Of a DNA stretch of 64,000 nt, positions 34,693-54,687 are shown one piece after another. Below the pieces are notes generated by a model. That model saw only the letters and a program-made list of their open reading frames with translations, did not search any database and was not told where the DNA came from. How positions within the stretch are numbered: position 1 is the first letter of the stretch; every line of letters begins with the position of its first letter. The translations under genes were made by a program, and so were the position numbers. This stretch comes from Actinomycetospora succinea (GTDB lineage Bacteria; Actinomycetota; Actinomycetes; Mycobacteriales; Pseudonocardiaceae): assembly GCF_004363095.1 (NCBI RefSeq), contig NZ_SNYO01000001.1, positions 62,001 to 126,000 of the forward strand, read 5' to 3'.

Positions 34693-35679
34693 TCACCGGT
34701 CGTCCCGCGTCAGGCGGGTGACGCCCTCGCGCGTGAGGTCGAACGCCGTCGCCACCTCGTCGCCGCGGCGCAGGCGCACCAGCCCGGTGTCGTCGATGCG
34801 TCCCACGACGGCGGCCTCGAGCCCGCGCTCGTGGAACGGGCCGACCGCGTCGGCCTCGCGCCCCGCGGGCGTGCAGAGCAGGAAGCAGAAGCTCGGGAAG
34901 CAGGTCAGCCAGTCGCCGACGTCGACACCGGCGGGCGCGGGCACGGCGTCGAGGTCCACCTCCACGCCGAACGTGCCCCACTCGAGCAGCATCGCCAGCG
35001 ACCCGACGAGGCCCGCCATGCTGACGTCCTTGGCCGCGACGGCGGCCCCGGACCGCGCGAGCGCCGCGAGCACCCGCACGTCGCCCGCGCACCGCTCGCC
35101 GCGCTGCTCGAACGCGGGGAAGAACGGGAAGTCGGGACGCATGGCGCCGTCGAGGGCGGCGGCGACGACGAGGCTCTGGCCTGCTGCGACGTGCGTGGTC
35201 GAGAGCGGCGCGTCCACCGAGCCCAGCGCGAACGCCGACACCGACGGCTCCCCGTCGTGGCTCGTCAGGTGGCCGCCGAGGACGGGGACGTCGTAGAGCG
35301 CGCAGGCCCGCTTCATGCCCTCGAGGGCGGCGCGGGCGTGACCCTCCGACGCGCTGACCGTGTTGACGATGCCGAGCGGCTCGGCGCCCATCGCGGCGAC
35401 GTCGTTGACGTTGGTGAGCACCGCCGCGAACCCGGCGCCCCAGGGGTCGCGGGCCACGAACGGCGGCCACAGCGCCTCGCCGCAGGCGACGACCCGTCCG
35501 CCGCCGGTCTCCACGACCGCCCCGTCGTCACCCGGCCCCCGCAGCCAGTCCGCGCCGCCGAAGACCTCGCTGACCAGCCCGATCGCGGCCTTCCCCCGCG
35601 TGCCGGGATGGGTCGCGACGCGGTGGGCGAGCGCGGTGAGGTCGCGCGCAGGGGCTTCGGCAGCAGGCACCGGGGTCAC
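34693..35679 (-). CDS. nitF: AIR synthase-like protein of the Nit1C type (sll0787/NitF-like)
   Basis: A 328-residue member of the PurM/ThiL superfamily. The ATP/Mg-binding start GPGDDGAVVETGGGRVVACGEALWP, the dimer-interface strand VLTNVNDVAAMGAEPLGIVNTV and a central glycine-rich SMAGLVGSLAMLLEWG are kept. It resembles the sll0787-type AIR synthase relatives found in Nit1C nitrile/cyanide-assimilation clusters, where it is often fused to an acetyltransferase (as in MSMEG_0567). Here the acetyltransferase half is a separate gene at 54181-54687. True PurM or ThiL function is unlikely from the context. It is divergent from comA across a 55-base promoter region holding a candidate operator. Confidence 0.75.
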   Translation of the reverse strand: MTPVPAAEAPARDLTALAHRVATHPGTRGKAAIGLVSEVFGGADWLRGPGDDGAVVETGGGRVVACGEALWPPFVARDPWGAGFAAVLTNVNDVAAMGAEPLGIVNTVSASEGHARAALEGMKRACALYDVPVLGGHLTSHDGEPSVSAFALGSVDAPLSTTHVAAGQSLVVAAALDGAMRPDFPFFPAFEQRGERCAGDVRVLAALARSGAAVAAKDVSMAGLVGSLAMLLEWGTFGVEVDLDAVPAPAGVDVGDWLTCFPSFCFLLCTPAGREADAVGPFHERGLEAAVVGRIDDTGLVRLRRGDEVATAFDLTREGVTRLTRDDR

Positions 35680-35687
35680 GTCCCGTC

Positions 35688-35703
35688 GTCAACGATGGTG
35701 TGT
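35688..35703. promoter_or_regulatory. candidate cluster operator 1
   Basis: GTCAACGATGGTGTGT lies between the divergent AIR-synthase-like and ComA-like genes, 8 bases from the former start. Its left half fits the shared pseudo-palindrome GTCnACnATrGTGGAC seen at 43992, 52353 and 58139; the right half is degenerate. Confidence 0.35.
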
Positions 35704-35734
35704 GGTCATCCATTATGTGATCTAACATCGGCTC

Positions 35735-36523
35735 ATGGCGACCCCGAGCTTCCTGACGCTGCCGTCGCGGTCGTCCGCACCCCGCACGGTCGGGCTCACC
35801 CACGTCCTGGACCCGGGCGTGAGCCCGGCGTCGGCGGCGGACCTGCTCGCCGGCGCCGGGGCGTTCGTCGACATCTGGAAGACCGGCTGGGGCACCGCCT
35901 ACGTCGACCCGCGGATCGCCGAGAAGCTCGCGGTGCTCGGTGAGCACGGGGTCGCGTCGTGCCTCGGGGGCACGCTGCTGGAGATCGCCTGGGCGCAGGG
36001 CGTCGCCGAGGAGTGCCTGGCGTGGGCCCGCGGGGTCGGGTTCCGCCACGTCGAGGTCTCGCGCGGGACGGTGCCCATGACCGTCGCCGACAAGCGCGCC
36101 CTGGTCCGGCAGGCCGCGGACCGCTTCGCCGTGATCACCGAGGTCGGCGCCAAGGACCCCGACCAGCAGCACACCCTCGACCAGTGGCGCGACGAGGCCG
36201 CCGCCGACCGGGAGGCGGGCGCGCACCTCGTCGTCGCCGAGGGCCGCCAGAGCGGCACGGTCGGGATCTTCGCCGCGGACGGCGGCGTGCGCGAGGACGT
36301 CGTCGACGCCCTGGCCGACGCGGTCGGGCCCGCGCACCTCGTGTTCGAGGCGCCGCGCGCGCACCAGCAGGCGTGGTTCGTGCGTCGCTTCGGTCCCGAC
36401 GTGAACCTCGGCAACATCGCGCTCGACGACGTCCTGGGCCTGGAGACACTGCGTCTGGGGCTGCGCTCGGACACGGCCGAGGCGACCGTCGGCGCCGTCA
36501 TCTCGGCGGAGCTGAGCCGATGA
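35735..36523 (+). CDS. phosphosulfolactate synthase (ComA) family protein
   Basis: A 262-residue TIM-barrel protein. Family landmarks are VDIWKTGWGTAY, the GGTLLEIA strand, VSRGTVPM, VITEVGAKDP, HLVVAEGRQSGTVGIF and NLGNIALDDVLGLETLRLGLR, covering the full ComA fold. ComA adds sulfite to phosphoenolpyruvate in coenzyme M synthesis; coenzyme M genes are absent and actinobacterial homologues have no proven reaction, so another addition reaction is likely. It begins an operon of seven tightly overlapping genes (ComA-like through AllH); the next ATG overlaps its stop by 4 bases. Confidence 0.82.
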   Translation: MATPSFLTLPSRSSAPRTVGLTHVLDPGVSPASAADLLAGAGAFVDIWKTGWGTAYVDPRIAEKLAVLGEHGVASCLGGTLLEIAWAQGVAEECLAWARGVGFRHVEVSRGTVPMTVADKRALVRQAADRFAVITEVGAKDPDQQHTLDQWRDEAAADREAGAHLVVAEGRQSGTVGIFAADGGVREDVVDALADAVGPAHLVFEAPRAHQQAWFVRRFGPDVNLGNIALDDVLGLETLRLGLRSDTAEATVGAVISAELSR

Positions 36524-37443
36524 GCTCGCCCAATCTCGTCCCCGGCCGCTACCGCGGCGTCGCCGTGGCCCGGGCGCCGCTGCCCTACGACGAGGAGACG
36601 CTGCGCGCGCGCTACCTCGGTCGCGAGGCGTACTGGAAGACGCGGTTCCTGGTGGTGCGCCCGCCCGACACCGACGACGGGCCGGTGGCGCTGCTCGCCG
36701 TGACCCGCGCCGGGGATGACGAGCTGTTCAGCCCGATCGTCGACGTCCGGCTGCTGGCGGGGCCGGAGGAGACGGTCCTGCTGCACCGTCCCGAGCTCGA
36801 CACCGCGGTGCCCACGCTGCTCGCCGCCGCGGCGGCCGAGGCGCCGGGGTACCGCGCGGTCGTCGTGCAGGGCCGCTACGAGCACGTGAACTTCATCCTC
36901 GACGCCCGCCCGCTGCCGGTCACCGTGCGGGAGGTGGTGCCGCCGCGGCCCGCGAAGCTCGCCGACCAGGCCCGCCGCGTGCTCGAGCTCTCCGAGGACC
37001 TCCCGCCGATCGCGATCACGCCGCACGCCGTCGACCTGGCCGACCTCGCCGCGGCGCACCCCGCGGAGCACTACCTGCTGCCGTGCCGCGGCGGCGGGGG
37101 CGAGGTGCCCGGGGCTGCCGTGTCGTACCTCGACGAGCGGCCGCCGGAGGCCGACTGGACGCTCCTGGGCTGCGAGCGCTCCCGGCAGATCCACCGGTGG
37201 TTCTACGGGCGCGAGGCGCCCGGGGCGGACACCTGCCCGCTGACCGCGATCGCAGCCGAGGGCCCGGGGGCGGTGCTCACCAAGTGCTGCCTGCAGCAGG
37301 AGGAGCTCGCGGAGGGCACGGTCGAGGGACCGGACGGGACGACGCGGTGGGTGTCGGTGCCGTGGGGGTCGTCGCTCGAGCACGTCCGCGAGGCGCTCGG
37401 CCGGCTCGCGCTGCGGGAGGAGCCCCGGTGGTCGCCCGCCTGA
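36520..37443 (+). CDS. uncharacterised protein (DUF7714-like)
   Basis: A 307-residue soluble protein with no recognised catalytic domain. Notable segments are LVPGRYRGVAVARAPLPYDEETLRARYLGREAYWKTRFLVV (split over residues 5-45), YEHVNFILDARPLPVTVREVVPPRP near 115 and two Cys motifs near the end (CPLTAIAAEG and LTKCCLQQEEL). It seems to match the DUF7714 family, but this recognition is tentative. The tight overlaps (ATGA with comA, 16 bases with the next gene) make it an integral pathway member. The Cys pair near residue 250 could be redox- or metal-active (inference). Confidence 0.6.
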   Translation: MSSPNLVPGRYRGVAVARAPLPYDEETLRARYLGREAYWKTRFLVVRPPDTDDGPVALLAVTRAGDDELFSPIVDVRLLAGPEETVLLHRPELDTAVPTLLAAAAAEAPGYRAVVVQGRYEHVNFILDARPLPVTVREVVPPRPAKLADQARRVLELSEDLPPIAITPHAVDLADLAAAHPAEHYLLPCRGGGGEVPGAAVSYLDERPPEADWTLLGCERSRQIHRWFYGREAPGADTCPLTAIAAEGPGAVLTKCCLQQEELAEGTVEGPDGTTRWVSVPWGSSLEHVREALGRLALREEPRWSPA

Positions 37444-38759
37444 CCGACTCGCCCGTCTACGCCCACCTCTGGACCACGCCCGAGCTCACCGCGCTGCTCG
37501 GCGAGGAGGCCCGCTGGCAGGCGTGGCTCGACATCCTCGTCGCGCTCGCCCGCGTGCAGGCGCGGGCGGGGATCGTGCCCGCCGAGGCCGCCGAGCAGAT
37601 CGCGCTCCGGGCGCGGGTCGAGGAGCTCGACTGGGACGCGGTCGCCGCCCAGACCCGCGCGACGTCGCACTCCACGCTCGGGCTGATCCGGGGCCTGCAG
37701 GCCGTGCTGCCCGGGACCGCGCGCGAGCACGTCTACGTCGGCGCGACCGTGCAGGACGTCACCGACACCTGGTTCGGCGCGGTGATGCGCGACGTCGGGG
37801 CGATCGCGCGCCGCGACGTGCGCGTGCTCGAGGAACGCGTGCTGGAGCTCGCCGCCACCCACCGGGCGACCCCGATCGCCGGGCGCACCCACGGGCAGCC
37901 CGGGGCGCCGGTGACCTTCGGGCTCAAGGCGGCGTCATGGGCCGACGAGCTGCGCCGGCACGGGCAGCGCCTCGTCGAGGGCCGCGCGCGCTGGGAGGTG
38001 GGCCAGCTCGCCGGCGCGGTGGGCGCGCTGGCCTTCCACGACGACGAGGGCGTCGACCCGCTCGCCGTGCGCGCCGCGTTCTGCGCGGAGCTCGGGCTGG
38101 ACGACCCGGGGATCTCGTGGACGACGAGCCGCGACCGGGTCGCCGAGTTCGGGGGCGTGCTCGCGATGGTCGCCGGCACCCTGGCGCGCATCGGCGGTGA
38201 GGTCTACGAGCTGGCGCGCCCGGAGATCGGCGAGCTCCGGGAACTCACCACCCCCACCGCCGTCGGCAGCATCACCATGCCGCACAAGCGCAACCCCGAG
38301 GTCAGCGAGCACCTCGACACCCTCGCGCGCCTGGCGCGGTCGTCGGCCGGCGTGCTGCTCGAGGGCATGGTCGCCGCCCACGAGCGTGACGGGCGCGGGT
38401 GGAAGGCCGAGTGGGCGGCGCTGCCCGAGGTCTGCCTGCTCGTCGGCACGGCGCTGTCGCTGGCGCGGAGCCTGCTCGACGGGCTGGAGGTGCACGTCGA
38501 CGCGATGGCGGCGAACCTCGCACGCCACGGCGACCGGCTCGGCTCGGAGCGCGTGCTCGCGGCGCTCTCCCCGCGACTGGGCAAGCACGCCGCGCAGGAC
38601 CTGCTGCAGGAGATCCTCGCGGGCGGCGGCGACCTCGCCGAGGAGCTCGCCGCGCGGGGGATCGCCGGCGGTGACGAGGTCCGGGGCTGGCTCGCGCGCC
38701 CGGCGGACCGGGTGGCGGTGGCGATGGTGGACGCCGTCGTGGCGCGGGGCGTGTCGTGA
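37428..38759 (+). CDS. adenylosuccinate lyase/cycloisomerase-like lyase (fumarase superfamily)
   Basis: A 443-residue member of the class II fumarase/aspartase superfamily, closest in layout to PurB and 3-carboxymuconate cycloisomerase. It has THGQPGAPVTFGLKAASWADEL near residue 150 and the signature loop GSITMPHKRNP near 280, with catalytic Ser and Lys kept. Real PurB also needs nucleotide-binding residues that cannot be judged here, and the context argues for a catabolic or specialised C-N lyase, not purine synthesis. GTG at 37428 was taken; it overlaps the preceding gene by 16 bases. A second superfamily lyase lies two genes downstream. Confidence 0.82.
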   Translation: MVARLTDSPVYAHLWTTPELTALLGEEARWQAWLDILVALARVQARAGIVPAEAAEQIALRARVEELDWDAVAAQTRATSHSTLGLIRGLQAVLPGTAREHVYVGATVQDVTDTWFGAVMRDVGAIARRDVRVLEERVLELAATHRATPIAGRTHGQPGAPVTFGLKAASWADELRRHGQRLVEGRARWEVGQLAGAVGALAFHDDEGVDPLAVRAAFCAELGLDDPGISWTTSRDRVAEFGGVLAMVAGTLARIGGEVYELARPEIGELRELTTPTAVGSITMPHKRNPEVSEHLDTLARLARSSAGVLLEGMVAAHERDGRGWKAEWAALPEVCLLVGTALSLARSLLDGLEVHVDAMAANLARHGDRLGSERVLAALSPRLGKHAAQDLLQEILAGGGDLAEELAARGIAGGDEVRGWLARPADRVAVAMVDAVVARGVS

Positions 38760-39730
38760 CCCGGTTCCCCCTCGGCGTCCTGCCCACCCCGCTCGTGCGC
38801 GCCGACCGGCTCCGCGCGGTCCTGGGCTGCGGGCCGCTGTGGACCAAGCGCGACGACCTCACCGGGTTCGGCGTGGCGGGCAACAAGGTCCGCGCGCTCG
38901 AGCACCTGCTCGGCGACGCCCTCGCCCGCGGCGGCGACGTGCTCGTCACCGGCGGCGGGCCCGACTCGAACTTCGTCGCCGCCGCGGCCCAGGCGGCGCG
39001 TGTCGCGGGGCTGGACTGCGAGCTGGTGGTGTGGGGCGACCCGCACGGGACGACGAACCTGGCGCTGGCGACGGCCGCCGGCGCGCGCATCCACCCCCTC
39101 GGCTCGGCGGATCGGGGCCGCGTCGACGGCGAGGTCGAGCGTCTCGGCGCCGAGCTCGCGCGCCAGGGGCGGCGGCCGCTGGCGGTGCCGCGCGGCGGGT
39201 CGACGCCGATGGGCGCGCTGGGGTTCGCGTGCGCGGCGGCGGAGGTCGTCGACCAGTGGAGCGAGCCCGCGGCGCCGACCGTCGTCCTCCCCGTCGGCTC
39301 GGGCGGCAGCGTCGCCGGGCTGCTCGCGGGGCTGGCGGGCACCGACTGGCAGGTGCTCGGGGCGTCGGTGAGCCGCCCGCCCGAGGAGATCACCGCGAAG
39401 GTGCTGGGACTGGCACACGAGACCGCGGCGCTCCGGGGCTCGACGCCGCCGCGCCCGGAGCAGCTGACGATCGTCGACGCCCGCGGCCCCGGCTTCGGGG
39501 TGGCGTCGCCCGCCGACCGGGCCGCCGCCGACCTCGTCCTGCGCACCGAGGGCGTGCTCCTCGACGACACCTACGGCGCGAAGGCAGCGGCGGTGGCGGT
39601 CGAACATCTAGGGACCGACCCCGCCCTGCTGTGGTTCACCGGCGGCCTCGTGTCCGCCCTCTCCCCTGTGAGCGAACTTCCGGGCCATAGCACCGAAGTT
39701 CGCTCACATACGACGGATGGAGCACCGTGA
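38756..39730 (+). CDS. PLP-dependent deaminase/desulfhydrase (ACC deaminase family)
   Basis: A 324-residue PLP enzyme of fold type II. The PLP-lysine is in TGFGVAGNKVRALEHLLGDA (Lys44) and the phosphate-binding loop is VLPVGSGGSVAGLLAGLAG. The family includes D-cysteine desulfhydrase and 1-aminocyclopropane-1-carboxylate deaminase; both release ammonia from amino acids. The last 20 or so residues are encoded by a 13-bp-stem inverted repeat (39668-39707) and look like an unconserved add-on, so the ancestral stop probably lay near 39665. It overlaps both neighbours by 4 bases (GTGA). Confidence 0.82.
   Translation: MTRFPLGVLPTPLVRADRLRAVLGCGPLWTKRDDLTGFGVAGNKVRALEHLLGDALARGGDVLVTGGGPDSNFVAAAAQAARVAGLDCELVVWGDPHGTTNLALATAAGARIHPLGSADRGRVDGEVERLGAELARQGRRPLAVPRGGSTPMGALGFACAAAEVVDQWSEPAAPTVVLPVGSGGSVAGLLAGLAGTDWQVLGASVSRPPEEITAKVLGLAHETAALRGSTPPRPEQLTIVDARGPGFGVASPADRAAADLVLRTEGVLLDDTYGAKAAAVAVEHLGTDPALLWFTGGLVSALSPVSELPGHSTEVRSHTTDGAP
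39668..39707. repeat. inverted repeat hairpin at the PLP gene end
   Basis: Perfect 13-base arms GTGAGCGAACTTC and GAAGTTCGCTCAC with a 14-base loop. It lies within the 3' end of the PLP gene and 19 bases before the next start. The outer sequence GTGAG...CTCAC is shared with the hairpin at 63827-63872. It may be a terminator-like or mobile palindromic element; there is no T-run. Confidence 0.75.
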
Positions 39731-41238
39731 GCACCTACCGCGACGAGGGCCCGCCGGTGGGCGGCCCCGCGCCCGAGCTCGTCGCGTCGGGGTTCGCGCT
39801 GGAGAACGCCGACGCCCCGTTCCTGCACCGCGGGCTGAACCTCGCGGACATGGCGCACGTGCTCGACCTGTCCCGCCGCGGCCTCGTGCCACCGACGGCA
39901 CAGCGGGCGCTGCTCGAGCTGCTGCTGGTCGCCCAGGCCACGCCGGCCGAGGAGTTCCCCTACGACCCGGAGCTGGGGGAGCCCTACAACTCCCGCGAGG
40001 CCTGGTTCGTCTCGCAGCTCGGCGACGTCGCGGGCTGGCTGCACGCCGGGCGGCCGCGTCGCGAGGCCGTGCGGATCGCGCTCCGCCTCCACGTCCGCCA
40101 CCAGATCGCCGAGCTCGTCACCGAGGCCGTCCGGTTCGGGCGCGACGCCGTGGCGCGCGCCGAGGAGCACACCGAGACGGTGATGCCCGACCAGACGTAC
40201 CTCCAGCACGCCCAGCCCTCGACGTTCGCGCACTACCTGCTGTCGTTCGTCTACTCGACCGTGCGCGACGGGCAGCGCCTGCTCGCCGAGCTCGACTGGG
40301 TCGACACGAGCCCGGGCGGCGCCGGCTGCGTCAACGGCACCCGCCTGCTGGAGGACCGCGCGTTCGTCGCCGAGTCGCTCGGGTTCGACGGCGTCATCGA
40401 GCACACGCGCGACGCGATGTGGCAGGTCGACGGCCTGATCTCGGTGCTCGCGGTGGCGTCGAGCCTCGTGTCGAACCTGTCGAAGCTCGCCGAGGACCTG
40501 GAGATCTGGTCGTCGAGCGAGTTCGACTACGTCGACCTCGACCACGGCTTCACCCGCGCCAGCGTGCTCATGCCGCAGAAGCGCAACCCGTACTCGCTCT
40601 CGATCATCCGTGGCGCCTCCGGGGTGCTCATCGGGCGCCTGTCGGGGTTCCTCGCGGTGAGCAAGAGCCCGTCGGCGCGCAGCGACAACCTGATCTACGC
40701 GTACGGCGAGGTCCCGCGCGCCCTGGACCTCACACTGCGCATCACCCGCCTCGCCGCGGGCGTCGTGCGCACCCTGCGCGTCAACGCCGAGCGGCTCGCC
40801 GAGGAGGTCCGCGGCGGGTACAGCCAGGCCACCGACCTCGCCGAGCACCTCGTGCAGACCTGCGACGTCGACTACCGCACCGCCTACCTCGTGGTCGGGC
40901 GCGCCGTGCGCGCCGCCAGCAAGGCCGGCGTTCCGGGCGTCGAGATCACCGGCGAGATGCTCGACCGGGCCGCGGTCGAGCACACCGGCCACGCGCTCGG
41001 CCTCGCCGGGACCGACCTCACCGGCGCCCTCGACCCCTGGCGGATCGTGCTCTCCCGCGACGCCCAGGGCGGCGCCGCGCCCGCCGCGGTCGCGCGGATG
41101 ACCGCCGACCTCACCGCCCGCCTCGACGACCTCGACGCGCGGGCCCGCGAGCGCCTCGCCGCGTTCGACGGCGCCGAGACCGCCCTGCTGGCGACCGTCC
41201 GGCAGGCCACGAGCCCCGCGATGGAGGAGACCCGATGA
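39727..41238 (+). CDS. argininosuccinate lyase-like protein (fumarase superfamily)
   Basis: A 503-residue ArgH-type lyase. The substrate-binding THAQPSTFAHYLLSF-like segment (here LQHAQPSTFAHYLLS) is near residue 160, and the flexible catalytic loop SVLMPQKRNPYSL is near 280, followed by a helical C-terminal domain. There are no arginine-synthesis genes in the window, and the gene sits between a PLP deaminase and the AllG gene, so a dedicated C-N lyase, for instance releasing fumarate or another acid from an N-substituted ureide or amidine, is more likely than ArgH proper. The GTG start overlaps the PLP gene stop; the stop overlaps the next ATG (ATGA). Confidence 0.8.
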   Translation: MSTYRDEGPPVGGPAPELVASGFALENADAPFLHRGLNLADMAHVLDLSRRGLVPPTAQRALLELLLVAQATPAEEFPYDPELGEPYNSREAWFVSQLGDVAGWLHAGRPRREAVRIALRLHVRHQIAELVTEAVRFGRDAVARAEEHTETVMPDQTYLQHAQPSTFAHYLLSFVYSTVRDGQRLLAELDWVDTSPGGAGCVNGTRLLEDRAFVAESLGFDGVIEHTRDAMWQVDGLISVLAVASSLVSNLSKLAEDLEIWSSSEFDYVDLDHGFTRASVLMPQKRNPYSLSIIRGASGVLIGRLSGFLAVSKSPSARSDNLIYAYGEVPRALDLTLRITRLAAGVVRTLRVNAERLAEEVRGGYSQATDLAEHLVQTCDVDYRTAYLVVGRAVRAASKAGVPGVEITGEMLDRAAVEHTGHALGLAGTDLTGALDPWRIVLSRDAQGGAAPAAVARMTADLTARLDDLDARARERLAAFDGAETALLATVRQATSPAMEETR

Positions 41239-45431: not shown

Positions 45432-45701
45432 ATGGCCCGCTCGTCGTTCTCCCGCTGGCTGCGCGAGAACTCCCAGCACTACCTCATGGTCGGCGCCCAC
45501 GAGCAGCTCGCGAAGCGCTACCCGGGCACCCGCGGGCCGCGCCGCCCGCACGGGCCCCTCGAGCTCGCGTGGCTGCGCGTGTTCGCGCCGGTCTACCGCG
45601 CGCTCCCGTGGCCCCTGCGCCACCGGATCCTCCGCGCGATGCCCGGCAGCCACCGCCAGACCTGGGCGCCGCCGCCGGCGCCCCGCGACCCGGCCGTCTG
45701 A
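45432..45701 (+). CDS. small basic hypothetical protein
   Basis: An 89-residue protein starting one base after the flavoprotein stop, so coupled. It is Arg/Pro-rich, with RWLRENSQHYLMVGAHEQLAKRYPGTRGPRR and an aromatic VFAPVYRALPWPLRHRIL helix. No known domain and no membrane helix. It differs clearly from the small MSMEG_0570-type protein of Nit1C clusters, which was not found. Confidence 0.6.
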   Translation: MARSSFSRWLRENSQHYLMVGAHEQLAKRYPGTRGPRRPHGPLELAWLRVFAPVYRALPWPLRHRILRAMPGSHRQTWAPPPAPRDPAV

Positions 45702-47601: not shown

Positions 47602-47975
47602 CCGCCGTGCTCGACACCGCGGGCCCGGCCGCGCCGCCGCGGGCCAACGGCGAGCTGGTGTTCGCCGAGCCGTGGGAGAGCCGCGCGTTCGGGATGGCGG
47701 TGTCGCTGGCCGACGCGGGCGCCTTCACGTGGGACGCGTTCCGCGACCGTCTCGTCGCCCGGATCGCGGCGTGGGAGGCGGAGCACGGCGCGGGCGGCCC
47801 GGGGGCCCCGGAGTTCCGCTACTACGCCTGCTGGCTCGATGCCCTCGAGGACGTGCTCGTCGACGGCGGGGCGCTGGGCGGCGACGACGTCGCGGCGCGC
47901 TCGACGGAGCTCGCCGCGCGCCCGGCCGGTCACGACCACCGGGACGACGAGCACGGGCACGGGCACGGTCACTAG
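47598..47975 (+). CDS. nitrile hydratase accessory protein (metallochaperone)
   Basis: A 125-residue homologue of the beta-subunit N-terminal half ([41 protein letters not shown]), typical of the activators that load cobalt by self-subunit swapping. The last 17 residues are His/Asp-rich ([15 protein letters not shown]), a metal-binding tail found in some chaperones of this kind. The GTG start overlaps alpha by 4 bases. No separate cobalt transporter was seen. Confidence 0.85.
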
Positions 47976-48025: not shown

Positions 48026-48373
48026 ATGGCCTCCGCCGCGCCCGACCCCTCGGCGTCGCCGTCCGCGCCGCCCCCGGGTCCGCCGCCTGCGGAGCCGCAC
48101 GCGATCCGGGCGGCTCTGAGCAGCGACCTGGCCGCGGAGTTCGACCAGGAGTGGAGTTCGGCGCTCGAGCGCGCGAAGGAGTCCCAGGACCTCGCCGAGG
48201 TCCATGGCTTGATCAACAAGTGGCGTCACACGGTGTACCTCGAGGCCCGGTCGCCCGGCGCATATCGCGCGATGCTGGCCAAGGCCGAGGAGATCCTGCG
48301 GACCGGGCACAACCCGGCAGCGACCTCGATCGAGGACCACCGGGCGCTCATCCGGGAGCGGCTGGGGCGGTAG
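48026..48373 (+). CDS. DUF6247 family protein, probable antitoxin-like
   Basis: A 115-residue protein. A Pro/Ala-rich leader precedes the DUF6247 core (HAIRAALSSDLAAEFDQEWSSALERAKESQDLAEVHGLINKWRHTVYL in parts). The next gene begins immediately after the stop codon. Small helical protein followed by a small beta-rich protein is the arrangement of type II toxin-antitoxin pairs, although DUF6247 has no proven role known to me. The pair sits between the nitrile hydratase operon and the convergent glycosyltransferase. Confidence 0.65.
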   Translation: MASAAPDPSASPSAPPPGPPPAEPHAIRAALSSDLAAEFDQEWSSALERAKESQDLAEVHGLINKWRHTVYLEARSPGAYRAMLAKAEEILRTGHNPAATSIEDHRALIRERLGR

Positions 48374-48628
48374 GTGTACCGCCTCGTTCCCGATCCGGTG
48401 GTGCGGGAGCAGGTCGCCGCGCTGCCCGTCGAGGCTCTCGACGCGTACGCCGCGGTCCTGGATAACTTGGTGCAATCACCCTGGAGCGGAGAGCCCCAGC
48501 ACGGCGACAACCCCGACGGTGCGGTGCGTCGACAGGCCTTCGGTCCCGAGGACGCCGGCCAGCTCGTGTACCTGATCCTCGAGGGGCAGCAGGAGGTTCA
48601 CCTGCTGCTCGTGCAGTGGTGGGCCTAA
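48374..48628 (+). CDS. small RelE-like hypothetical protein paired with DUF6247
   Basis: An 84-residue protein starting with GTG directly after the DUF6247 stop (no gap). The sequence YRLVPDPVVREQVAALPVEALDAYAAVLDNL, then the strands LVYLILEGQQEVHLLLVQWW, follow the helix-strand order of RelE/ParE-type toxins, but catalytic residues cannot be identified. It overlaps the end of the glycosyltransferase gene by 4 bases. A toxin role is inference from size, pairing and fold pattern. Confidence 0.55.
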   Translation: MYRLVPDPVVREQVAALPVEALDAYAAVLDNLVQSPWSGEPQHGDNPDGAVRRQAFGPEDAGQLVYLILEGQQEVHLLLVQWWA

Positions 48629-49791
48629 CCCGCCGGGTGGCCGACGCCCGCGCGGACGTCGTCGTAGACCGCGAGGTGGCGGCGGGCGCTCGCGGCCCAC
48701 GTGTAGCGGGCCAGCGTCTCGCGTCCGCCGGTGCGCAGCCGGCGGCGCAGTGCGCGGTCGGCGTACATCTCCTGCATCGCCCGCGCCAGCGCCACGCTGT
48801 CCCCGGAGTGGGGCATGAGCGCGTTGTGGTGGTGCAGCAGGTACTCCCGGAACACCGGCAGGTCGCCCGCGACGACGGGCAGGTCGGCGGCCATGGCCTC
48901 GAGCACCGCCAGGCCCCAGCCCTCGGACAGCGAGGGGAAGCAGAGCGCGTCGGCGCTGCGGTACCAGGCGCCGAGGTCGGCCTCGGACAGCGTGCCGAGC
49001 AGGACGACGTCGCGCCCCAGCTCCAGGCCCAGGTCGGGGAGGCGGGCGAGGGTCTCGTCGCGGTAGGCGGCGTAGTCGCGGAACGAGTGCCCGCCGACGA
49101 TGGCGAGCATCGGCGGGTGCGGCATCGTGGCCGTCAGCCGGCCCAGGGCCTCGAACGCCACGTGCGTGCCCTTGCGCGGCTCGACCCCGCCGACGCCGAG
49201 GAACAGGAACCGGTCCTGCGCGCCGATCGACGCGCGCAGCTCGGCCACGCGCTCGGGGGAGACCGGCGGGAAGCGGTCGGGGTCGACGCCGTTGGGCACC
49301 ACCGTGGCCTCGCGCCCGTACTCGTCGCGCAGGATCCGCCGCCACTGCTCGCTGACGACGAGCACCCGGTCGGGCTCGCGGATCGCGGCGCGCTGGCAGT
49401 CGACCAGCGCGGGGGTGGTGAAGTCGTCGACGTGGTGCACGGTGCGCACCACCGCCACGTCGGCGCCGGCGTCGCGGACGCGGGCGGCGGCGCGCGCGGC
49501 GATGCAGTCCTGGGTGTGCAGGACGTCGAACCGGTCGGTGAGATCGCCCAGGGCGGTGGTGAGCCGGTCGATCGACGCGAACACCTTGTCGGTCAGCGAG
49601 CCGCCGGACGGCGGGGCCGGCAGCACCGTGAACGGCACCGTCGTCGGCCGGAAGAGCCCGGCCGCGGGGTCGCCCTGGCTCACGACGTGCACCGGCTGCC
49701 CGGCGGCCTGCAGGGCCTCGGCGAGCGCGAGCGTGTGCACCATCCCGCCGCGCGGCGAGGTGGAGTGGGTGACGAGGGCGAGCTCCCTCAC
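48625..49791 (-). CDS. MSMEG_0565 family glycosyltransferase (GT4)
   Basis: A 388-residue GT-B glycosyltransferase. It opens with LALVTHSTSPRGGMVHTLALAEAL and has the donor-site EGWGLAVLEAMAADLPVVAGDLPVFREYL with the EX7E pair near residue 285. The protein closely follows the MSMEG_0565-type glycosyltransferases that accompany actinobacterial Nit1C clusters. The GTG start overlaps the AllF stop by 4 bases (GTGA), placing it in the same operon as AllF and carbamate kinase. The acceptor is unknown; in Nit1C its role is also unexplained. Confidence 0.85.
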   Translation of the reverse strand: MRELALVTHSTSPRGGMVHTLALAEALQAAGQPVHVVSQGDPAAGLFRPTTVPFTVLPAPPSGGSLTDKVFASIDRLTTALGDLTDRFDVLHTQDCIAARAAARVRDAGADVAVVRTVHHVDDFTTPALVDCQRAAIREPDRVLVVSEQWRRILRDEYGREATVVPNGVDPDRFPPVSPERVAELRASIGAQDRFLFLGVGGVEPRKGTHVAFEALGRLTATMPHPPMLAIVGGHSFRDYAAYRDETLARLPDLGLELGRDVVLLGTLSEADLGAWYRSADALCFPSLSEGWGLAVLEAMAADLPVVAGDLPVFREYLLHHHNALMPHSGDSVALARAMQEMYADRALRRRLRTGGRETLARYTWAASARRHLAVYDDVRAGVGHPAG

Positions 49792-51353
49792 GGGGCCATC
49801 CCGAACGGTGCGAGCTCGGCGATCGACGGGTCGCGGCGCGCGATCGCCGCGGCTGCGAGGGCGGCACGCGCGGCGGTCTCGGTGACCACGCAGCCGGCGT
49901 CGAGGAAGGCGCGGCGCTGGGCCGCGAGGCCCTGCGGGTCGCCCTCGGTGCCCAGCACGTAGACCACGACCCGACCGCCGCCCGCGACGATGCGGGCGCA
50001 CTCGCCGGCGAGCTCGCCTGCCGGATCGGGGTGCGCGCCGTAGCCGAGGACGACGTCGAGCACGATCGCCGCGACCTCGGGGTCGGCGCCCTGCTCGCGC
50101 AGGTGCTCGAGGCGCGCCTCGGGGTCGATCATCGGGTGCGGCCGGCCCTGGGTGTACTCCTCCTCGCCGAGGTCGAGGCACACGTGGCTCGACGGCGGGG
50201 CGGGGACGGCGAGCGCCTTGTCGAGCGGCGTGTTCGACCACACCGGGCCGAGCACCCGCGAGAGCACGACCAGCGACTCGTAGCAGAGCGTGCCGCCGGA
50301 GTAGAGGCCGCGGACCAGCGTGCGACCCGGGTCGAGGCCCGTGATCGCCGCGTCCACCTGCGCGCGCAGCCCGGCCGCCGGGTCGGGCGCCTCCCGCCCG
50401 AGGACGCCGAGCACCGCCAGCGCGCCGGCCTCGAGCGTCGGCACCTGGACCACCGACGCTCCGTCGAGCGGCTCGTCCATCCCGATCAGCGCGGCGACGA
50501 GCGGGGTGTCGCCGGCCTCGGCGACGACGGTGCGCGCGACGTCGGGGTCCGGTGGCTTGGACACGAGCAGGATCGCGTCGGTCGCCGGGTCGGCGGCCAT
50601 CGTGCGCACCGCGAGCCGGCCCATCGGCCCGCCGACGGCGGCGCCGAGGTCGCGCCCGCCGAGGCCGACGACGTGGGTCACGCCGACGCCGAAGCGGTCG
50701 AGCAGCGCGGCCACCTCCTGCGCGCCGGTGCCCGCCGCGGCGACGACCCCGACCGCGCCGACGCGGTCGGCGAGCGGGGCCACCACGTTGGCGAACCCCA
50801 GGCACGTCCGGCCGAGCATCGCGGTCCCCGCGCCGGGCCCCATGACCAACCGGCCGAGCTCCGTGGCGCGCGTCTTGAGCGCGATCTCGTCGTCGAGCGA
50901 GACGTTGTCGCTGAACAGCAGGACGTCGAGTCCCGCACCGAGAGCCTGGTGGGTCTCGAGCGCGGCGTAGTCGCCGGGCACGGAGATCACCGCGACGTTG
51001 CTGGCCGCCTGCCGGGCGACGGCCTCGGCGAGCGAGCGGGGGTCGGGCTCGGCCGCGCCGGCAGCCGTCGACGCCGAGCGCGGGCTGAACGCGGCGTCGC
51101 GGCCGGCGTCCTGTGCGGCCGTGCGCGCCTCGTCGGAGTCGGCCCGGACGGCGAGGAACAGGTCGCCCGGCCCGGCGCCCGCCCACTCGGCGGGGTCGAA
51201 GCCCTCCTTCTCCAGCGTGGCGAGGTTCGCCTCGGTGGCCATCGCGACGGCCGCCCAGTCGACCCCCGGCACCTCGCGCATCGCGCGCGTGCCCGAGAGC
51301 TGCACGACCGAGTCGAGGTAGGTGTCCTTGTAGAGGACGACGCCCGCGCTCAT
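49788..51353 (-). CDS. fdrA: FdrA/AllF-type acyl-CoA synthetase-like subunit of oxamate carbamoyltransferase
   Basis: A 521-residue FdrA protein (ADP-forming succinyl-CoA synthetase relative). The start VVLYKDTYLDSVVQLSGTRAM is typical, as are DVLLFSDNVSLDDEIALK, MGPGAGTAML, GVGVTHVVGLGGRDL and the C-terminal DVVLGYGAHPDPAGEL. In Escherichia coli it is AllF, one of three subunits that convert oxalurate and phosphate to oxamate and carbamoyl phosphate. Its partners AllG and AllH are 6-8 kb away, on the other strand but under similar operators. The ATG overlaps the carbamate kinase stop by 4 bases. Confidence 0.85.
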   Translation of the reverse strand: MSAGVVLYKDTYLDSVVQLSGTRAMREVPGVDWAAVAMATEANLATLEKEGFDPAEWAGAGPGDLFLAVRADSDEARTAAQDAGRDAAFSPRSASTAAGAAEPDPRSLAEAVARQAASNVAVISVPGDYAALETHQALGAGLDVLLFSDNVSLDDEIALKTRATELGRLVMGPGAGTAMLGRTCLGFANVVAPLADRVGAVGVVAAAGTGAQEVAALLDRFGVGVTHVVGLGGRDLGAAVGGPMGRLAVRTMAADPATDAILLVSKPPDPDVARTVVAEAGDTPLVAALIGMDEPLDGASVVQVPTLEAGALAVLGVLGREAPDPAAGLRAQVDAAITGLDPGRTLVRGLYSGGTLCYESLVVLSRVLGPVWSNTPLDKALAVPAPPSSHVCLDLGEEEYTQGRPHPMIDPEARLEHLREQGADPEVAAIVLDVVLGYGAHPDPAGELAGECARIVAGGGRVVVYVLGTEGDPQGLAAQRRAFLDAGCVVTETAARAALAAAAIARRDPSIAELAPFGMAP

Positions 51354-52312
51354 CGCGCGTTCCCGATGATGCGCGTGCCGGTGAGCTCGGCGCCGTAGGC
51401 GTCGCCCGCGTCGAGCGAGGGCCCGGCCCGGTCCGCGGTCGTGATCACCGCGGTGCGGCCGCCCTCGCGCAGGAAGCGCACGGCCGCGCGGACCTTCGGG
51501 CCCATGCTGCCGTCGGGGAACTGCCCGTCCTCGAGGTGCTTCGCGGCCTCGTCGACCGACATCTCGTCGATCGCGCGCCGGTCCGGGGTGTCGAAGTCGA
51601 CGTAGACCTTGGGGGTGTCGGTGACGAGCACGAGCGCGTCGGCGTTGACCGAGGCCGCGAGCCGCTGGGCCGTGAAGTCCTTGTCGATGACGGCGTCGAT
51701 GCCCTCGAGGCCGTGGTCGCCCGCGATGACCGGGATGCCGCCGCCCCCGCCCGCGACGACGATCATGTGCTGCTCGATGAGGGCGCGGACGGCGTCGACC
51801 TCGACGATCCCGACGGGCTTCGGCGACGGGACGACGCGGCGGTGCCCGCGGTCGCCGTCGCGCACCATGTCCCAGCCGCGCTCGCGGACGAGGTCGGCCG
51901 CCTGGTCGCGGGTGAAGTAGGGCCCGACCGGCTTGGTCGGGCGCTGGAAGGCCGGGTCGGCGGGGTCGACCATGACGTGGGTGACCACCGAGACGACGCC
52001 GGGCAGGCGCCCGCGGCCCTCGGCGAGCAGCGCGAGGCCGAGCAGGCTGCCGAGCTGGCCCTGGGTCATCGAGTTGACGCAGAACAGGGGCAGCGCGGGC
52101 ACGATCGAGGCCGCCTCGTCCTGCTGGATCGCCAGGTTGCCGACCTGCGGCCCGTTGCCGTGGACGAGCACGACGTTCCACCCGGCGTCGCGCAGCGCGC
52201 ACACGGCGCGGGCCATCGCGTGGGCGTTCTCGGACTGCTCGGCGTAGGTCCCGGCCTGGCCGCCCCGGGTGATGGCGTTCCCGCCGAGAGCGACCACTGC
52301 GGTTCTGGGCAT
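51350..52312 (-). CDS. arcC: carbamate kinase
   Basis: A 320-residue amino-acid-kinase-family protein with VVALGGNAITRGGQAGTYAEQ at the start, LVHGNGPQVGNLAIQQDEAA, FTAQRLAASVNADALVLVTD and the C-terminal PKVRAAVRFLREGG. It converts carbamoyl phosphate and ADP to ATP, carbamate (then CO2 and ammonia). It is the first gene of the operon carbamate kinase-AllF-glycosyltransferase, which pairs a carbamoyl-phosphate-producing enzyme with the ATP-harvesting step. The ATG at 52312 was chosen; a GTG five codons upstream is possible. Confidence 0.92.
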   Translation of the reverse strand: MPRTAVVALGGNAITRGGQAGTYAEQSENAHAMARAVCALRDAGWNVVLVHGNGPQVGNLAIQQDEAASIVPALPLFCVNSMTQGQLGSLLGLALLAEGRGRLPGVVSVVTHVMVDPADPAFQRPTKPVGPYFTRDQAADLVRERGWDMVRDGDRGHRRVVPSPKPVGIVEVDAVRALIEQHMIVVAGGGGGIPVIAGDHGLEGIDAVIDKDFTAQRLAASVNADALVLVTDTPKVYVDFDTPDRRAIDEMSVDEAAKHLEDGQFPDGSMGPKVRAAVRFLREGGRTAVITTADRAGPSLDAGDAYGAELTGTRIIGNAR

Positions 52313-52352
52313 CGGTGTCCCCGTCACTCCTGATCCATGATGAGCGGCGTCC

Positions 52353-52368
52353 GTCTACTATAGTGGAC
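52353..52368. promoter_or_regulatory. candidate cluster operator 3 (best palindrome)
   Basis: GTCTACTATAGTGGAC, a 16-base inverted repeat with a single mismatched pair, lies between the divergent carbamate kinase operon and the operon of the unknown protein and radical SAM enzyme. It is only 3 bases before the ATG at 52372, a position suited to repression. Confidence 0.6.
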
Positions 52369-52371
52369 ATC

Positions 52372-52995
52372 ATGAACGCTGTGGACCGGTCCGGGGAAGA
52401 GGGGGCTCTCGACCGGGCGCGCGCCCGGTGGCGGGCCGCGGGCGACCGGGTGTGGGCGATCGCGGTGGTCGACGGCGAGGAGTACCGGCGGCTGGCCGAA
52501 CGTGTCGGCGCCGTCCTCGACGAGGTCCGGGCCGCGGCGCCGGCCGTCGGGGACCTGCTCGCGCTCGACGCCGACCCGGGCCCGGTGCTCGGGCGGGCCG
52601 GGACGCGCGCGGTCCTCGACGCCGCGCTCGCGGTGCGCGCCGACGAGCTGGTGGCCGCGCGGGCACGCGACGAGCGCCGGGCGGCGATCGCGGCCGCGCG
52701 TGCGTCGGGGGAGCGCTGGGTGGTCCTCGACGCGTCGGCGGGGTCGACCCACCGGACCGTCGAGATGCACCTGGCGACGGGGCTGGCCCTGGTCGCGACC
52801 GCCGATCCGTACGCGGGCGGAGAGCCCTACGTGCTCGGCGAGGCCGTGCTGGACACCGAGACGGGAGTGACGATCACGGACGGGACCGAGACGTCGTTCG
52901 CGGACGCCGTGGCGTGGCGCGACGCCCGGGCCCGCCGTCGCCGGGAGATCGACTCACGCCTTGACGGCGGGGACACGATGCTTTCCGATAAGTGA
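52372..52995 (+). CDS. unknown protein heading the radical SAM operon
   Basis: A 207-residue soluble protein that I do not recognise. It is Arg/Ala-rich with RRLAERVGAVLDEVRAAAP, a central helix ARARDERRAAIAAARASGERWVVLDAS and a strand-rich end (RTVEMHLATGLALVATADPYAGGEPYVLGEAVLDTETG in pieces). The ATG at 52372 begins just after operator 3. It is the first gene of an operon with the MSMEG_0568 and MSMEG_0567 homologues and is not a standard Nit1C component, so it may be a substrate-specific partner. Confidence 0.6.
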   Translation: MNAVDRSGEEGALDRARARWRAAGDRVWAIAVVDGEEYRRLAERVGAVLDEVRAAAPAVGDLLALDADPGPVLGRAGTRAVLDAALAVRADELVAARARDERRAAIAAARASGERWVVLDASAGSTHRTVEMHLATGLALVATADPYAGGEPYVLGEAVLDTETGVTITDGTETSFADAVAWRDARARRRREIDSRLDGGDTMLSDK

Positions 52996-53000: not shown

Positions 53001-53016
53001 GTAGCTCAAAGTAGAC
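53001..53016. promoter_or_regulatory. weak operator-like half-site before the radical SAM gene
   Basis: GTAGCTCAAAGTAGAC ends in AGTAGAC, the exact reverse complement of one arm of operator 3; the other arm is not conserved. It lies 16 bases before the radical SAM start, in the 37-base gap. Confidence 0.2.
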
Positions 53017-53032
53017 GCGAGGCGGGTGGCGC

Positions 53033-54184
53033 ATGACGGGCCTGATGGGCGAGGAGACGGTCACGGCGGGAGAGCACCCCGATCCCGCGGCGATCGCCTC
53101 GGTGATCGTGGCCGTCCAGAGCGCCGGGATCCGCCTCGAGACCCCGGTGGAGACCCGCACCGGCGGGGCCGGGCCGACCGACGCGGGCATGCTCTGGATC
53201 GAGGGCTTCCCGGTCACCGTGCCGACCACCGCCGCGTCGCCCTACGTCCTGCGCTCCGAGGACAACGGCGCCCAGGGTCTCTACCGCGACGGCGTGCGGC
53301 TCGCCGCGGTCACCGGCGCGCGCCGGCCCCGGTTCTACGACCGCACCACCGCCGACGGCACGCCCTACTGGAAGATCGCGCTGCTGCACCTCGACTCGCT
53401 GGCGAGCACCGTCGTGCAGGCCTGCAACTACTGGAACACCGCCGACCAGTGCGCCTTCTGCGGGATCGGGGTGTCGCTCGACTCCGGGTCCACCGTGGCG
53501 CGCAAGACCCCCGAGCAGCTCGCCGAGGTCGCGGTCGCCGCGAAGGAGCTCGACGGCGCCGTCGACGCCACGCTGACCACGGGCAGCTCGGTCGCCCCGG
53601 ACCGCGGCGCGCGCTACGTCGCGCGCTGCGGGCGCGCGGTCAAGGACGCCGCCGGGCTCCCCGTCGAGATTCAGTTCGAGCCGCCGCGCGACCTCGCGAT
53701 CCTCGACGAGGTGCACGGGACGGGCGGCGCCGACGCGGTCGGCATCCACGTCGAGACGTTCGACCCCGACGTGCTCGCCCGCGTCGCGCCCGGCAAGGCG
53801 CGCACGGGCCTCGACACCTACTACCGGACCTGGGAGCGCGCGGTCGCGCTCTGGGGCCGGGGCCGGGTCTCGACCTACGTCATCCTCGGCATGGGCGAGG
53901 ACCCCGACCTCACGATCGAGGGCTGCCGGCGCGCCGTCGACATCGGCGTCTACCCGTTCGTCGTGCCACTGCGGCCCGTCGCGGGCAGCCTGCTCGCCGA
54001 CGCGACGCCGCCCGACGCGGCCTACACCGACCGCGTCTACCAGAAGGTCGCGGCCTACATGACCGAGCGGAAGATGTCGTCCGCCGACGCCGTCGCCGGC
54101 TGCGCGCGCTGCCAGGCCTGCTCGGCGCTCAACGCGGTGCAGCCGCTGCTGCAGATCGGCCGGCGTCCGGGGGCCGCCTCGTGA
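53033..54184 (+). CDS. nitD: MSMEG_0568 family radical SAM protein (NitD-like)
   Basis: A 383-residue radical SAM enzyme. The cluster-binding motif is CNYWNTADQCAFC (residues about 131-143), an unusual spacing, CX8CX2C, that marks the MSMEG_0568 family rather than the usual CX3CX2C. A SAM-barrel follows with VPLRPVAGSLLAD and a C-terminal CARCQACSALN cysteine patch that may hold an auxiliary cluster or bind metal. The protein is a core Nit1C component; the reaction is not established. ATG at 53033 is preceded by GAGGCGGG. It is coupled to the acetyltransferase gene by a GTGA overlap. Confidence 0.88.
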   Translation: MTGLMGEETVTAGEHPDPAAIASVIVAVQSAGIRLETPVETRTGGAGPTDAGMLWIEGFPVTVPTTAASPYVLRSEDNGAQGLYRDGVRLAAVTGARRPRFYDRTTADGTPYWKIALLHLDSLASTVVQACNYWNTADQCAFCGIGVSLDSGSTVARKTPEQLAEVAVAAKELDGAVDATLTTGSSVAPDRGARYVARCGRAVKDAAGLPVEIQFEPPRDLAILDEVHGTGGADAVGIHVETFDPDVLARVAPGKARTGLDTYYRTWERAVALWGRGRVSTYVILGMGEDPDLTIEGCRRAVDIGVYPFVVPLRPVAGSLLADATPPDAAYTDRVYQKVAAYMTERKMSSADAVAGCARCQACSALNAVQPLLQIGRRPGAAS

Positions 54185-54687
54185 CGCGGTCGGTCGCGCG
54201 GACCGTGGTCTGCGCGGTCGCGGCGGACGAGGCGGAGCGCGCCGCGCACCACCGGGTGCGCCGCGCGGTGTTCGTCGACGAGCAGGGCATCTTCGCGGGC
54301 GACGACCTCGATTCCCACGACGCCCGCGACGACGTCCTGCACGTGGTCGCCCGCGTCGGCGAGGACGTCGTCGGCACGGTGCGGCTCTTCCCGCTGGACC
54401 CCGCCGATCCCGCCGGCACCTGGCAGGGCGACCGCCTCGCCGTCCTCGCGGCCGCGCGCACCGCCGGGGCCGGGGCGCCGCTGGTCCGCTTCGCCGTCGC
54501 GACGGCGGCCGTCCGCGGCGGTCGGCGCATGGTCGCGCACGTCCAGCCCGCCAACCGGCGCTTCTTCGAGCACCTCGGCTGGACCGCCAGGGAGACCGAG
54601 GACTACGCCGGGCGCCCCCACGTGTTCATGACGATCGCGCTAGCGCGGGACCACCAGGCGCCCGTGCTCGACGAACCGGGGACGTAG
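54181..54687 (+). CDS. nitE: MSMEG_0567 family GNAT N-acetyltransferase (NitE-like)
   Basis: A 168-residue GNAT protein: RVRRAVFVDEQGIFAGDDLDSHD, the VVGTVRLFPLD strand and RMVAHVQPANRRFFEHLGW, with the acetyl-CoA loop region AGAGAPLVRFAVATA. It corresponds to the acetyltransferase half of MSMEG_0567, whose AIR-synthase half is the gene at 34693-35679. The canonical QxxGxG/A loop is degenerate (AARTAGAGAP), as is usual in this family. Its end overlaps the convergent BTAD regulator gene by 48 bases. Confidence 0.85.
   Translation: MTRSVARTVVCAVAADEAERAAHHRVRRAVFVDEQGIFAGDDLDSHDARDDVLHVVARVGEDVVGTVRLFPLDPADPAGTWQGDRLAVLAAARTAGAGAPLVRFAVATAAVRGGRRMVAHVQPANRRFFEHLGWTARETEDYAGRPHVFMTIALARDHQAPVLDEPGT

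Follow-up and report, generated by a model that had tools for sequence, protein, structure and literature searches.

A coenzyme M operon joined to nitrile hydratase, carbamoyltransferase and Nit1C-type genes in Actinomycetospora and its relatives, with a proposed role in nitrogen salvage

We analysed a 64,000-nucleotide stretch of the Actinomycetospora succinea genome (referred to below as the window; 74% G+C), which is located on contig C1 of the 6.47-Mb, 23-contig genome sequence. The window contains a block of approximately 22 genes, found together in many actinobacteria, in which coenzyme M (CoM) biosynthesis genes are combined with genes for a nitrile hydratase (NHase), a carbamoyltransferase, a carbamate kinase and cyanide-linked (Nit1C-type) proteins. 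CoM has so far been linked to methane and alkene metabolism. This cluster, by contrast, is probably a co-regulated, CoM-dependent system of nitrogen catabolism that ends in carbamoyl phosphate and ATP and uses CoM for nitrogen salvage, not for alkenes. Our analysis suggests an undescribed route to nitrogen from cyanide-like compounds.

The CoM operon

The forward-strand operon at positions 35735-43411 consists of the genes for ComA, XcbA, XcbD, XcbE, XcbC, AllG and AllH, with neighbouring genes overlapping by 4 bases and, in one case, by 16. The bacterial CoM biosynthesis set (ComA, XcbA, XcbC, XcbD and XcbE) is therein present in full, and XcbC and AllG are joined by a 4-base overlap, the CoM operon running into AllG-AllH. 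All five CoM proteins are 38-45% identical to the enzymes of Xanthobacter Py2. The first gene (35735-36523) encodes a ComA/XcbB-like phosphosulfolactate synthase, which we take to catalyse the first step of CoM synthesis (PF02679, 260.5 bits against a cut-off of 25.2; TIGR03849, 226.4 bits, below the cut-off of 280; 40% identity to Xaut_5052). XcbA (36520-37443; 41% to Xaut_5051) exceeds the cut-off of NF052538 (291.9 against 150 bits). For XcbD, of the 3-sulfopropionylcysteine synthase family (37428-38759), the pyridoxal phosphate (PLP) enzyme XcbE (38756-39730) and XcbC, a fumarase-family enzyme of CoM synthesis (39727-41238), the best matches are NF052536, NF052537 and NF052535, with scores below the cut-offs (566.5, 244.5 and 422.1 bits against 600, 450 and 575, respectively). 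XcbD is 45% identical to Xaut_5054 and has an identical GSITMPHKRNP loop; XcbE is 42% identical to Xaut_5055 and retains the KRDDL and GNK motifs and the PLP-lysine region; and XcbC, which is 38% identical to Xaut_5053 and 47% to its M. chubuense counterpart, retains PQKRNPY. XcbD scored at least 566 bits in all 17 cluster genomes searched, whereas the next family member reached 319.

In alkene users, the CoM genes serve epoxide metabolism (PMC11507031). The cluster resembles the epoxide pathway of Xanthobacter Py2 and Mycolicibacterium in carrying ComA, XcbA, XcbD, XcbE and XcbC in the M. chubuense order, with a flavoprotein of the coenzyme A (CoA)-disulfide reductase (CoADR)-like type nearby; such a flavoprotein (31%) also adjoins ComA in the M. 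chubuense epoxide locus. However, the epoxyalkane:CoM transferase (EaCoMT) was absent from 16 of the 17 cluster genomes searched, including that of the window, in which the best match scored 85 bits (true EaCoMT, at least 273), and no 2-KPCC-like gene was found in the mapped loci. Furthermore, in phylogenetic trees the cluster XcbD and XcbA are each split from the epoxide-type proteins by a supported branch (96/91 and 100/97, respectively; the fragments L005 and L006, of 225 and 105 residues, were left out of the XcbD tree and L031, of 162 residues, out of the XcbA tree). Four epoxide-type genomes (G036, G071, G080 and G102) have EaCoMT and gave no AllG match genome-wide. Because EaCoMT is missing from 16 of the 17 cluster genomes, we rejected the assignment of these CoM genes to the epoxide pathway; CoM is here, as far as is known, not made for alkenes.

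In G209 and P. hydrocarbonoxydans (G210), XcbA, XcbD and XcbE are missing from the cluster and copies are present elsewhere, XcbA and XcbD being of the epoxide clade. The P. hydrocarbonoxydans cluster holds just ComA and XcbC, and epoxide-clade XcbA and XcbD (701 bits) as well as XcbE lie elsewhere in the genome. Since EaCoMT was not detected in this genome (best match, 74 bits), its epoxide-clade copies can hardly serve epoxides. Judged from this natural swap, the cluster XcbA, XcbD and XcbE seem to be interchangeable with genuine CoM enzymes.

Carbamoyltransferase genes, conservation and a shared palindrome

The two genes at the end of the CoM operon encode AllG-like (41235-42632; PF06545, 207.7 against 27 bits) and AllH-like (42629-43411; PF11392, 68 against 25 bits) carbamoyltransferase subunits. 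On the reverse strand, the genes for the MSMEG_0565-type glycosyltransferase, the AllF/FdrA-like subunit (49788-51353) and carbamate kinase (ArcC; 51350-52327) overlap one another and are followed by the forward-strand radical SAM and GNAT genes described below. All three AllFGH-type subunits and carbamate kinase are thus present; AllG and AllH exceed the Pfam cut-offs, and AllF falls under the FdrA model (NF004760, 372.3 against 433 bits), with an E-value of 2.4e-63 to FdrA of PDB entry 3dmy. The kinase exceeds the cut-off of NF009007 (277.3 against 266 bits) and is below that of TIGR00746 (336.1 against 358.25 bits). AllFGH of Escherichia coli is an oxamate carbamoyltransferase: it uses oxalurate and phosphate to form oxamate and carbamoyl phosphate, and a carbamate kinase is encoded in its operon (PMC11326118). 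The window shares AllF, AllG, AllH and carbamate kinase with this allFGHK oxalurate branch, but differs from it in the below-cut-off score of its AllF and in that no allantoin gene was found among the window genes scanned. In genome G148, a second AllF-AllG-AllH set adjoins the cluster (L105, 6720-10726), and its AllF scores 686 bits against the FdrA cut-off of 433.

A scan for AllG in 84,980 species genomes, which reaches close relatives only, yielded 17 loci in 16 genomes belonging to Actinomycetospora, Pseudonocardia, Pseudonocardiaceae metagenome-assembled genomes (MAGs) and one Acidimicrobiia MAG. Among the named genomes, the nearest relative of the cluster is that of Actinomycetospora lutea (94% in AllG), and the loci of A. 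chibensis and A. callitridis represent two genomes of the same genus. Mapping by tblastn revealed the same gene order in most of the loci that are long enough, and a reshuffled order in L031, L032, L033, L043 and L045, the last two being loci of the family sample. The arrangement seen in the original prediction therefore holds in related genomes, and a chance neighbourhood was rejected, since the gene set recurs in the mapped loci of other genomes.

XcbA was found in 16 of the 200 genomes of the family sample and in 10 of the 396 of the phylum sample, the latter including the window's own genome. Among the 25 XcbA-bearing sample genomes, 20 have AllG and/or AllF beside Xcb genes, 4 carry the epoxide type only, and 1 (G285) shows neither, there being no AllG match in a genome whose contig is too short for placement. 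These 20 comprise 11 family-sample genomes with XcbA in the cluster, G122, in which XcbA has been lost from the cluster, and eight genomes from four other families (G243, G257, G307, G339, G382, G404, G468 and G601); in G468, AllG is located on the same contig as XcbA.

Gene contents were tabulated for 30 cluster genomes chosen for AllG or XcbA (maximum pairwise XcbC identity, 98.8%). The identity thresholds were set by hand, a locus ending at a contig or stretch end was counted as lacking the genes beyond, and pairs sharing DNA (G135/G201, G037/G205, G121/G207 and G189/G214) or representing the same genome (G122/G210) were each counted once. XcbC is present in all 30 genomes, OsmC, XcbA and XcbD in 29 each, ComA in 28, AllG in 27, AllF in 26, carbamate kinase and the CoADR-like flavoprotein in 23 each, and NHase alpha in 20. 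Several loci end before the positions of carbamate kinase and the flavoprotein, and the XcbA and XcbD of P. hydrocarbonoxydans were counted in spite of their location outside the cluster. The OsmC-like protein (33888-34280, reverse strand) scores below the cut-offs of OsmC-type models. In many relatives, LarE- and/or LarC-like genes, which function in nickel-pincer cofactor synthesis, adjoin the OsmC end of the cluster (tblastn, two being confirmed by NCBIfam; L020-L026, L029, L030, L034, L036, L043, L045, L103, L111 and others); no match above 100 bits to these genes was obtained in the window.

Comparison of promoters between genomes identified a 14-base palindrome, TCTACTATAGTAGA, with sites before ArcC/u226, AIR-synthase-like/ComA, XRE/flavoprotein and AllG/radical SAM genes, and before XcbA or ComA in other families. 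The window contains one match at up to 3 mismatches (TCTACTATAGTGGA, 52354-52367, a putative operator between ArcC and u226), compared with 0.05 expected, and the same site is the only match in the whole genome at up to 2 mismatches. In 12 genomes, 14 of the 16 matches are located inside the cluster (G205 has none). At up to 3 mismatches, the palindrome occurs in the mapped loci of 23 of the 30 genomes, not always in a promoter. A search for shared 16-mers among the window promoters yielded nothing useful. The XRE-cupin regulator encoded at 43342-43989 on the reverse strand (PF01381 and PF07883 above cut-off) is a candidate for binding the palindrome. The gene next to the operator, u226 (52372-52995, forward strand), encodes a poorly conserved protein that has no Pfam match and is present in 17 of the 30 cluster genomes.

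Nitrile hydratase and the Nit1C-type families

The original prediction described the locus as a Nit1C-like gene set that lacks the nitrilase and has an NHase in its place. The NHase beta-alpha-accessory set does follow the MSMEG_0572 gene, and each gene exceeds its TIGRFAM cut-off: beta (46322-47011; TIGR03888, 154.8 against 152.2 bits), cobalt-type alpha (47008-47601; TIGR01323, 304.6 against 249.85 bits) and the accessory protein (47598-47975; TIGR03889, 70.9 against 46 bits), all on the forward strand. The metal motif of the alpha subunit, CTLCSC, is the same as that in Co-type structures. In the alpha subunit tree, a clade with support of 100/99 unites 19 cluster proteins with three more, namely L126, which a cluster genome encodes on a different contig, and L143 and L145, which are additional copies in genomes that have the cluster. 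Outside this clade fall 23 further sampled NHases, of which the window's own genome contributes three; the 26 'other' NHases in the tree are a fetched selection (20 plus 6 from other loci) of the known matches, and a partial second match in G257 is unplaced. On the basis of this separate clade, we rejected the possibility that the protein is one of the general NHases of the genome. The gene set and the CTLCSC site are therefore those of cobalt NHase operons, whereas the separate clade, the fixed position within the cluster and the lack of an amidase in the window's cluster set it apart.

The clade NHase is present in the mapped loci of 20 of the 30 cluster genomes and, in G339, on another contig. 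It is missing in seven (G148, G211, G243, G257, G307, G404 and G601), and G206 and G208 were counted neither way. Genomes G148, G307, G404 and G601 gave no NHase match at all, and G211, G243 and G257 contain other NHase types only (apart from the unplaced partial match in G257). In G148, an amidase-signature protein occupies the place of the NHase, between the MSMEG_0572 and glycosyltransferase genes. As a separate observation, a conserved protein resembling metal-dependent hydrolases by eye (no NCBIfam match at 1e-10) is encoded at L039 12321-13157, L115 5439-6314 and L107 9502-10353, and also in L022 and L023. Its gene neighbours that of the radical SAM or MSMEG_0572 protein in three clusters that lack the clade NHase, and lies at the end of two that have it.

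Profile scans recovered all five Nit1C-associated families named earlier, four of them above the cut-offs. These are the MSMEG_0572/Sll0783 family protein (45771-46256, forward; TIGR04044, 224.1 against 109.85 bits), the MSMEG_0565-type glycosyltransferase (48625-49791, reverse; TIGR04047, 357.6 against 259.85 bits), the MSMEG_0568-type radical SAM protein (53033-54184, forward; TIGR04043, 382.3 against 303.7 bits) and the MSMEG_0567-type GNAT (54181-54687, forward; TIGR04045, 110.7 against 68.45 bits). The AIR-synthase-like protein (sll0787/NitF type; 34693-35679, reverse) has TIGR04049 as its best match, below the cut-off (245.6 against 321.3 bits), and exceeds that of PF00586 (75.4 against 24 bits). 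The curated cut-offs of the radical SAM, GNAT and MSMEG_0572 families are thus each exceeded, in agreement with Nit1C membership. The MSMEG_0572 protein is, by its fold and conserved cysteine, a member of the DsrE/DsrF family, as judged from a moderate-confidence AlphaFold2 model (predicted local distance difference test, pLDDT, of 76): six of the ten PDB chains at E <= 0.001, including the best (Foldseek E-value 1.9e-6), are titled DsrE/DsrF, and Cys114 is invariant in the alignment. This kinship of the MSMEG_0572/Sll0783 family has been stated before (PMC6039565, PMC3901256).

The Nit1C nitrilase is indeed missing, since TIGR04048 was above cut-off in none of the 21 genomes searched. Nor does such a gene lie nearby: PF00795 has 10 matches in the genome, none on contig C1. 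The absence of an amidase after the NHase also stood, none being present among the window genes scanned, and the MSMEG_0570 family gave no match among the scanned window genes, the small open reading frames (ORFs) having been scanned in part. A conserved 89-aa protein (45432-45701, forward; 13 relatives at 55-89% identity; predicted structure at a pLDDT of only 54) was ruled out as the missing MSMEG_0570, because it matches no NCBIfam model. The flavin disulfide reductase encoded upstream of it (44078-45430, forward) was compared with the MSMEG_0569/NitH type: the CoA-disulfide reductase model TIGR03385 was the best among 25 of 57 models (255.7 bits, below the cut-off of 578.8), and the protein has the single active-site cysteine motif of this type, YSPCGIPY, which is kept in eight cluster rows of the alignment.

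The same genome contains, on contig C4 (263000-282000; L037), homologues of MSMEG_0572, 0568, 0567 (a GNAT-AIR fusion) and 0565 flanking two nitrilase-superfamily genes, and tblastn mapping matched no CoM or AllFGH gene there. The presence of this separate MSMEG_0565-0572-like locus means that the window's cluster is a parallel system. The original prediction is therefore upheld on the conservation of a Nit1C-like module that has a dedicated NHase but no Nit1C nitrilase, and not on a simple replacement of the nitrilase by the NHase: the clade NHase is missing in 7 of 30 clusters that keep the other genes, and L037 is retained in the same genome. Genes at 35735-43411, 44078-45701 and 49788-52995, among them the CoM operon, AllFGH and carbamate kinase, were not part of that description.

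Two known systems share these families. The Nit1C cluster (nitBCDEFGH) of Pseudomonas and cyanobacteria has in common with the window the radical SAM and GNAT proteins (NitD and NitE), the MSMEG_0572/Sll0783 family and probably the AIR-synthase-like protein (NitF), and its nitrilase serves cyanide assimilation in Pseudomonas (PMC11049912). The window's cluster differs in lacking the nitrilase NitC, in that the 0570-type gene was not found, in its flavoprotein, apparently of the CoA-disulfide-reductase type, and in the addition of NHase, CoM, AllFGH and carbamate kinase genes. The gpr cluster of M. smegmatis (MSMEG_0565-0572; PMC6039565) shares the 0565, 0567, 0568 and 0572 families and contains amidase/nitrilase-superfamily genes where the window's cluster has the NHase; nitrogen starvation induces this operon, which depends on GlnR (PMC6039565, PMC4222082).

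The window has several further features. Two small adjoining ORFs at 48026-48628, between the NHase accessory and glycosyltransferase genes, are toxin-antitoxin-like by eye only; they have no NCBIfam match and no tblastn match in the mapped loci, and the second has no Pfam match. Outside the cluster, the window encodes a hydantoinase A and B pair on the reverse strand (6810-11217), an aldehyde dehydrogenase (12041-13504) and a protein with HSP70-like ATPase and DUF6777 domains (19585-22041).

Proposed function

In the proposed scheme, a nitrile-type group would be converted by the NHase to an amide, in which the carbamoyl group would be bound to a good leaving atom. Phosphate would then receive this carbamoyl group through the action of the AllFGH-like complex, and carbamate kinase would convert carbamoyl phosphate to ATP, ammonia and CO2. 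The dedicated NHase clade suggests that nitrile hydration feeds this AllFGH/carbamate kinase end. The amide-type intermediate of the original prediction stays plausible, because the oxamate-carbamoyltransferase-like complex and carbamate kinase, in place of an amidase, are its likely consumers, taking up the carbamoyl group.

The most economical detailed version, which we put forward tentatively and regard as doubtful, makes CoM a carrier of cyano and carbamoyl groups (CoM-SCN to CoM-S-CONH2 to carbamoyl phosphate). Cyanide would cleave the CoM disulfide or meet a persulfide to form CoM-SCN, the NHase would hydrate this to S-carbamoyl-CoM (CoM-S-CONH2), and AllFGH would phosphorolyse the latter to carbamoyl phosphate and free CoM-SH, with the flavoprotein maintaining the CoM thiol/disulfide pool. 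Disulfide cyanolysis and thiol carbamoylation are textbook chemistry.

Several points weigh against a CoM-dependent nitrogen-catabolic system. XcbC, XcbD and XcbE score under the NCBIfam 'exception' cut-offs, so that the product could be a relative of CoM; in addition, XcbE was not found between XcbD and XcbC in L114, L117, L118 and L119 (two other families), in which the flanking genes are present, and the last steps or the product may therefore differ there. G209, in contrast to P. hydrocarbonoxydans, does carry EaCoMT and is less telling. The AllF and AllG of the window are just 39% identical to the second set of G148, whose AllF passes the FdrA cut-off, and G339, which does have AllF and carbamate kinase, gave no match to AllG anywhere in the genome. 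The absence of the clade NHase from 7 of 30 genomes, together with the amidase in one of them, implies that nitrile hydration is not the core step. The scheme does not account for the glycosyltransferase, nor for the radical SAM, GNAT and AIR-like proteins, the last three being shared with Nit1C (the AIR-like protein at a score below the cut-off). The cluster is patchy, XcbA being found in 3 of the 9 further genomes from the same genus, and several of the genomes are MAGs, so that single absences are weak evidence. Finally, 7 of the 30 genomes have no palindrome match in their mapped loci at up to 3 mismatches, and in the 12 genomes mentioned above the reversed pattern, used as a control, matched 8 times, compared with 16 for the palindrome; it is therefore the placement of the matches and not their number that is striking.

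Four alternatives were considered. CoM may be a low-molecular-weight thiol buffer in nitrogen starvation, acting with OsmC, the DsrE-like protein and the disulfide reductase, while AllFGH, carbamate kinase and NHase salvage nitrogen alongside. The gpr cluster of M. smegmatis, GlnR-induced on nitrogen starvation, has been tied to peroxide resistance (PMC6039565), and a Synechocystis sll0783 mutant was described as short of reducing equivalents (PMC3901256). The frequency of OsmC (29 of the 30 cluster genomes) and of the CoADR-like protein (23) is consistent with this role, but the overlap of xcbC with allG and the near-equal constancy of AllG/AllF and the CoM genes are left unexplained by it. 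Moreover, mycothiol is already present in actinobacteria, and we consider a redox role unlikely.

If the locus were instead a variant of Nit1C with an amide intermediate and the NHase in place of the nitrilase, as originally predicted, the CoM genes would be an unrelated neighbour. The Nit1C families common to both, the dedicated NHase clade and the lack of TIGR04048 matches above cut-off would fit; clusters without the NHase nevertheless keep the CoM and AllFGH genes, the palindrome occurs in the promoters of both gene sets, and the genome has nitrilase-superfamily genes in another locus, all of which makes such a variant improbable. We give as little weight to a route parallel to the epoxide pathway, in which CoM would react with a nitrogen-containing electrophile, either an isothiocyanate or an unsaturated nitrile, and the resulting adduct would be the substrate of NHase, amidase or AllFGH. 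Its attraction lies in the epoxide role of CoM genes in alkene users (PMC11507031) and in the variable front-end enzymes (NHase in most loci, amidase in L039), yet no EaCoMT-like transferase is present in the loci, nor in 16 of 17 genomes, and alkyl amides are unlikely carbamoyl donors. It is very improbable that the CoM, glycosyltransferase, GNAT and radical SAM genes make a sulfonated small molecule or cofactor: the glycosyltransferase has a weak similarity to those of mycothiol and bacillithiol synthesis (79 and 57 bits, far under cut-off), but the families of carbamate kinase, AllFGH and NHase belong to catabolism, and no non-ribosomal peptide synthetase, polyketide synthase or exporter was found among the window genes scanned.

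In the open-access literature, with subscription papers and preprints outside the search, no paper was found that links CoM with NHase or a carbamoyltransferase in the sense of the proposed nitrogen-salvage system. Our results place CoM in a new context and provide the Nit1C/gpr genes with new partners, namely a carbamoyltransferase, a carbamate kinase and a disulfide reductase, and they make a concrete chemistry testable. They also caution that xcb genes should not be taken as a marker of alkene oxidation. If CoM does act as a carrier, the system would add a biological role to those of this cofactor and would reach carbamoyl phosphate through a thiocarbamate, a new route by which the nitrogen of cyanide would be assimilated with a gain of ATP.

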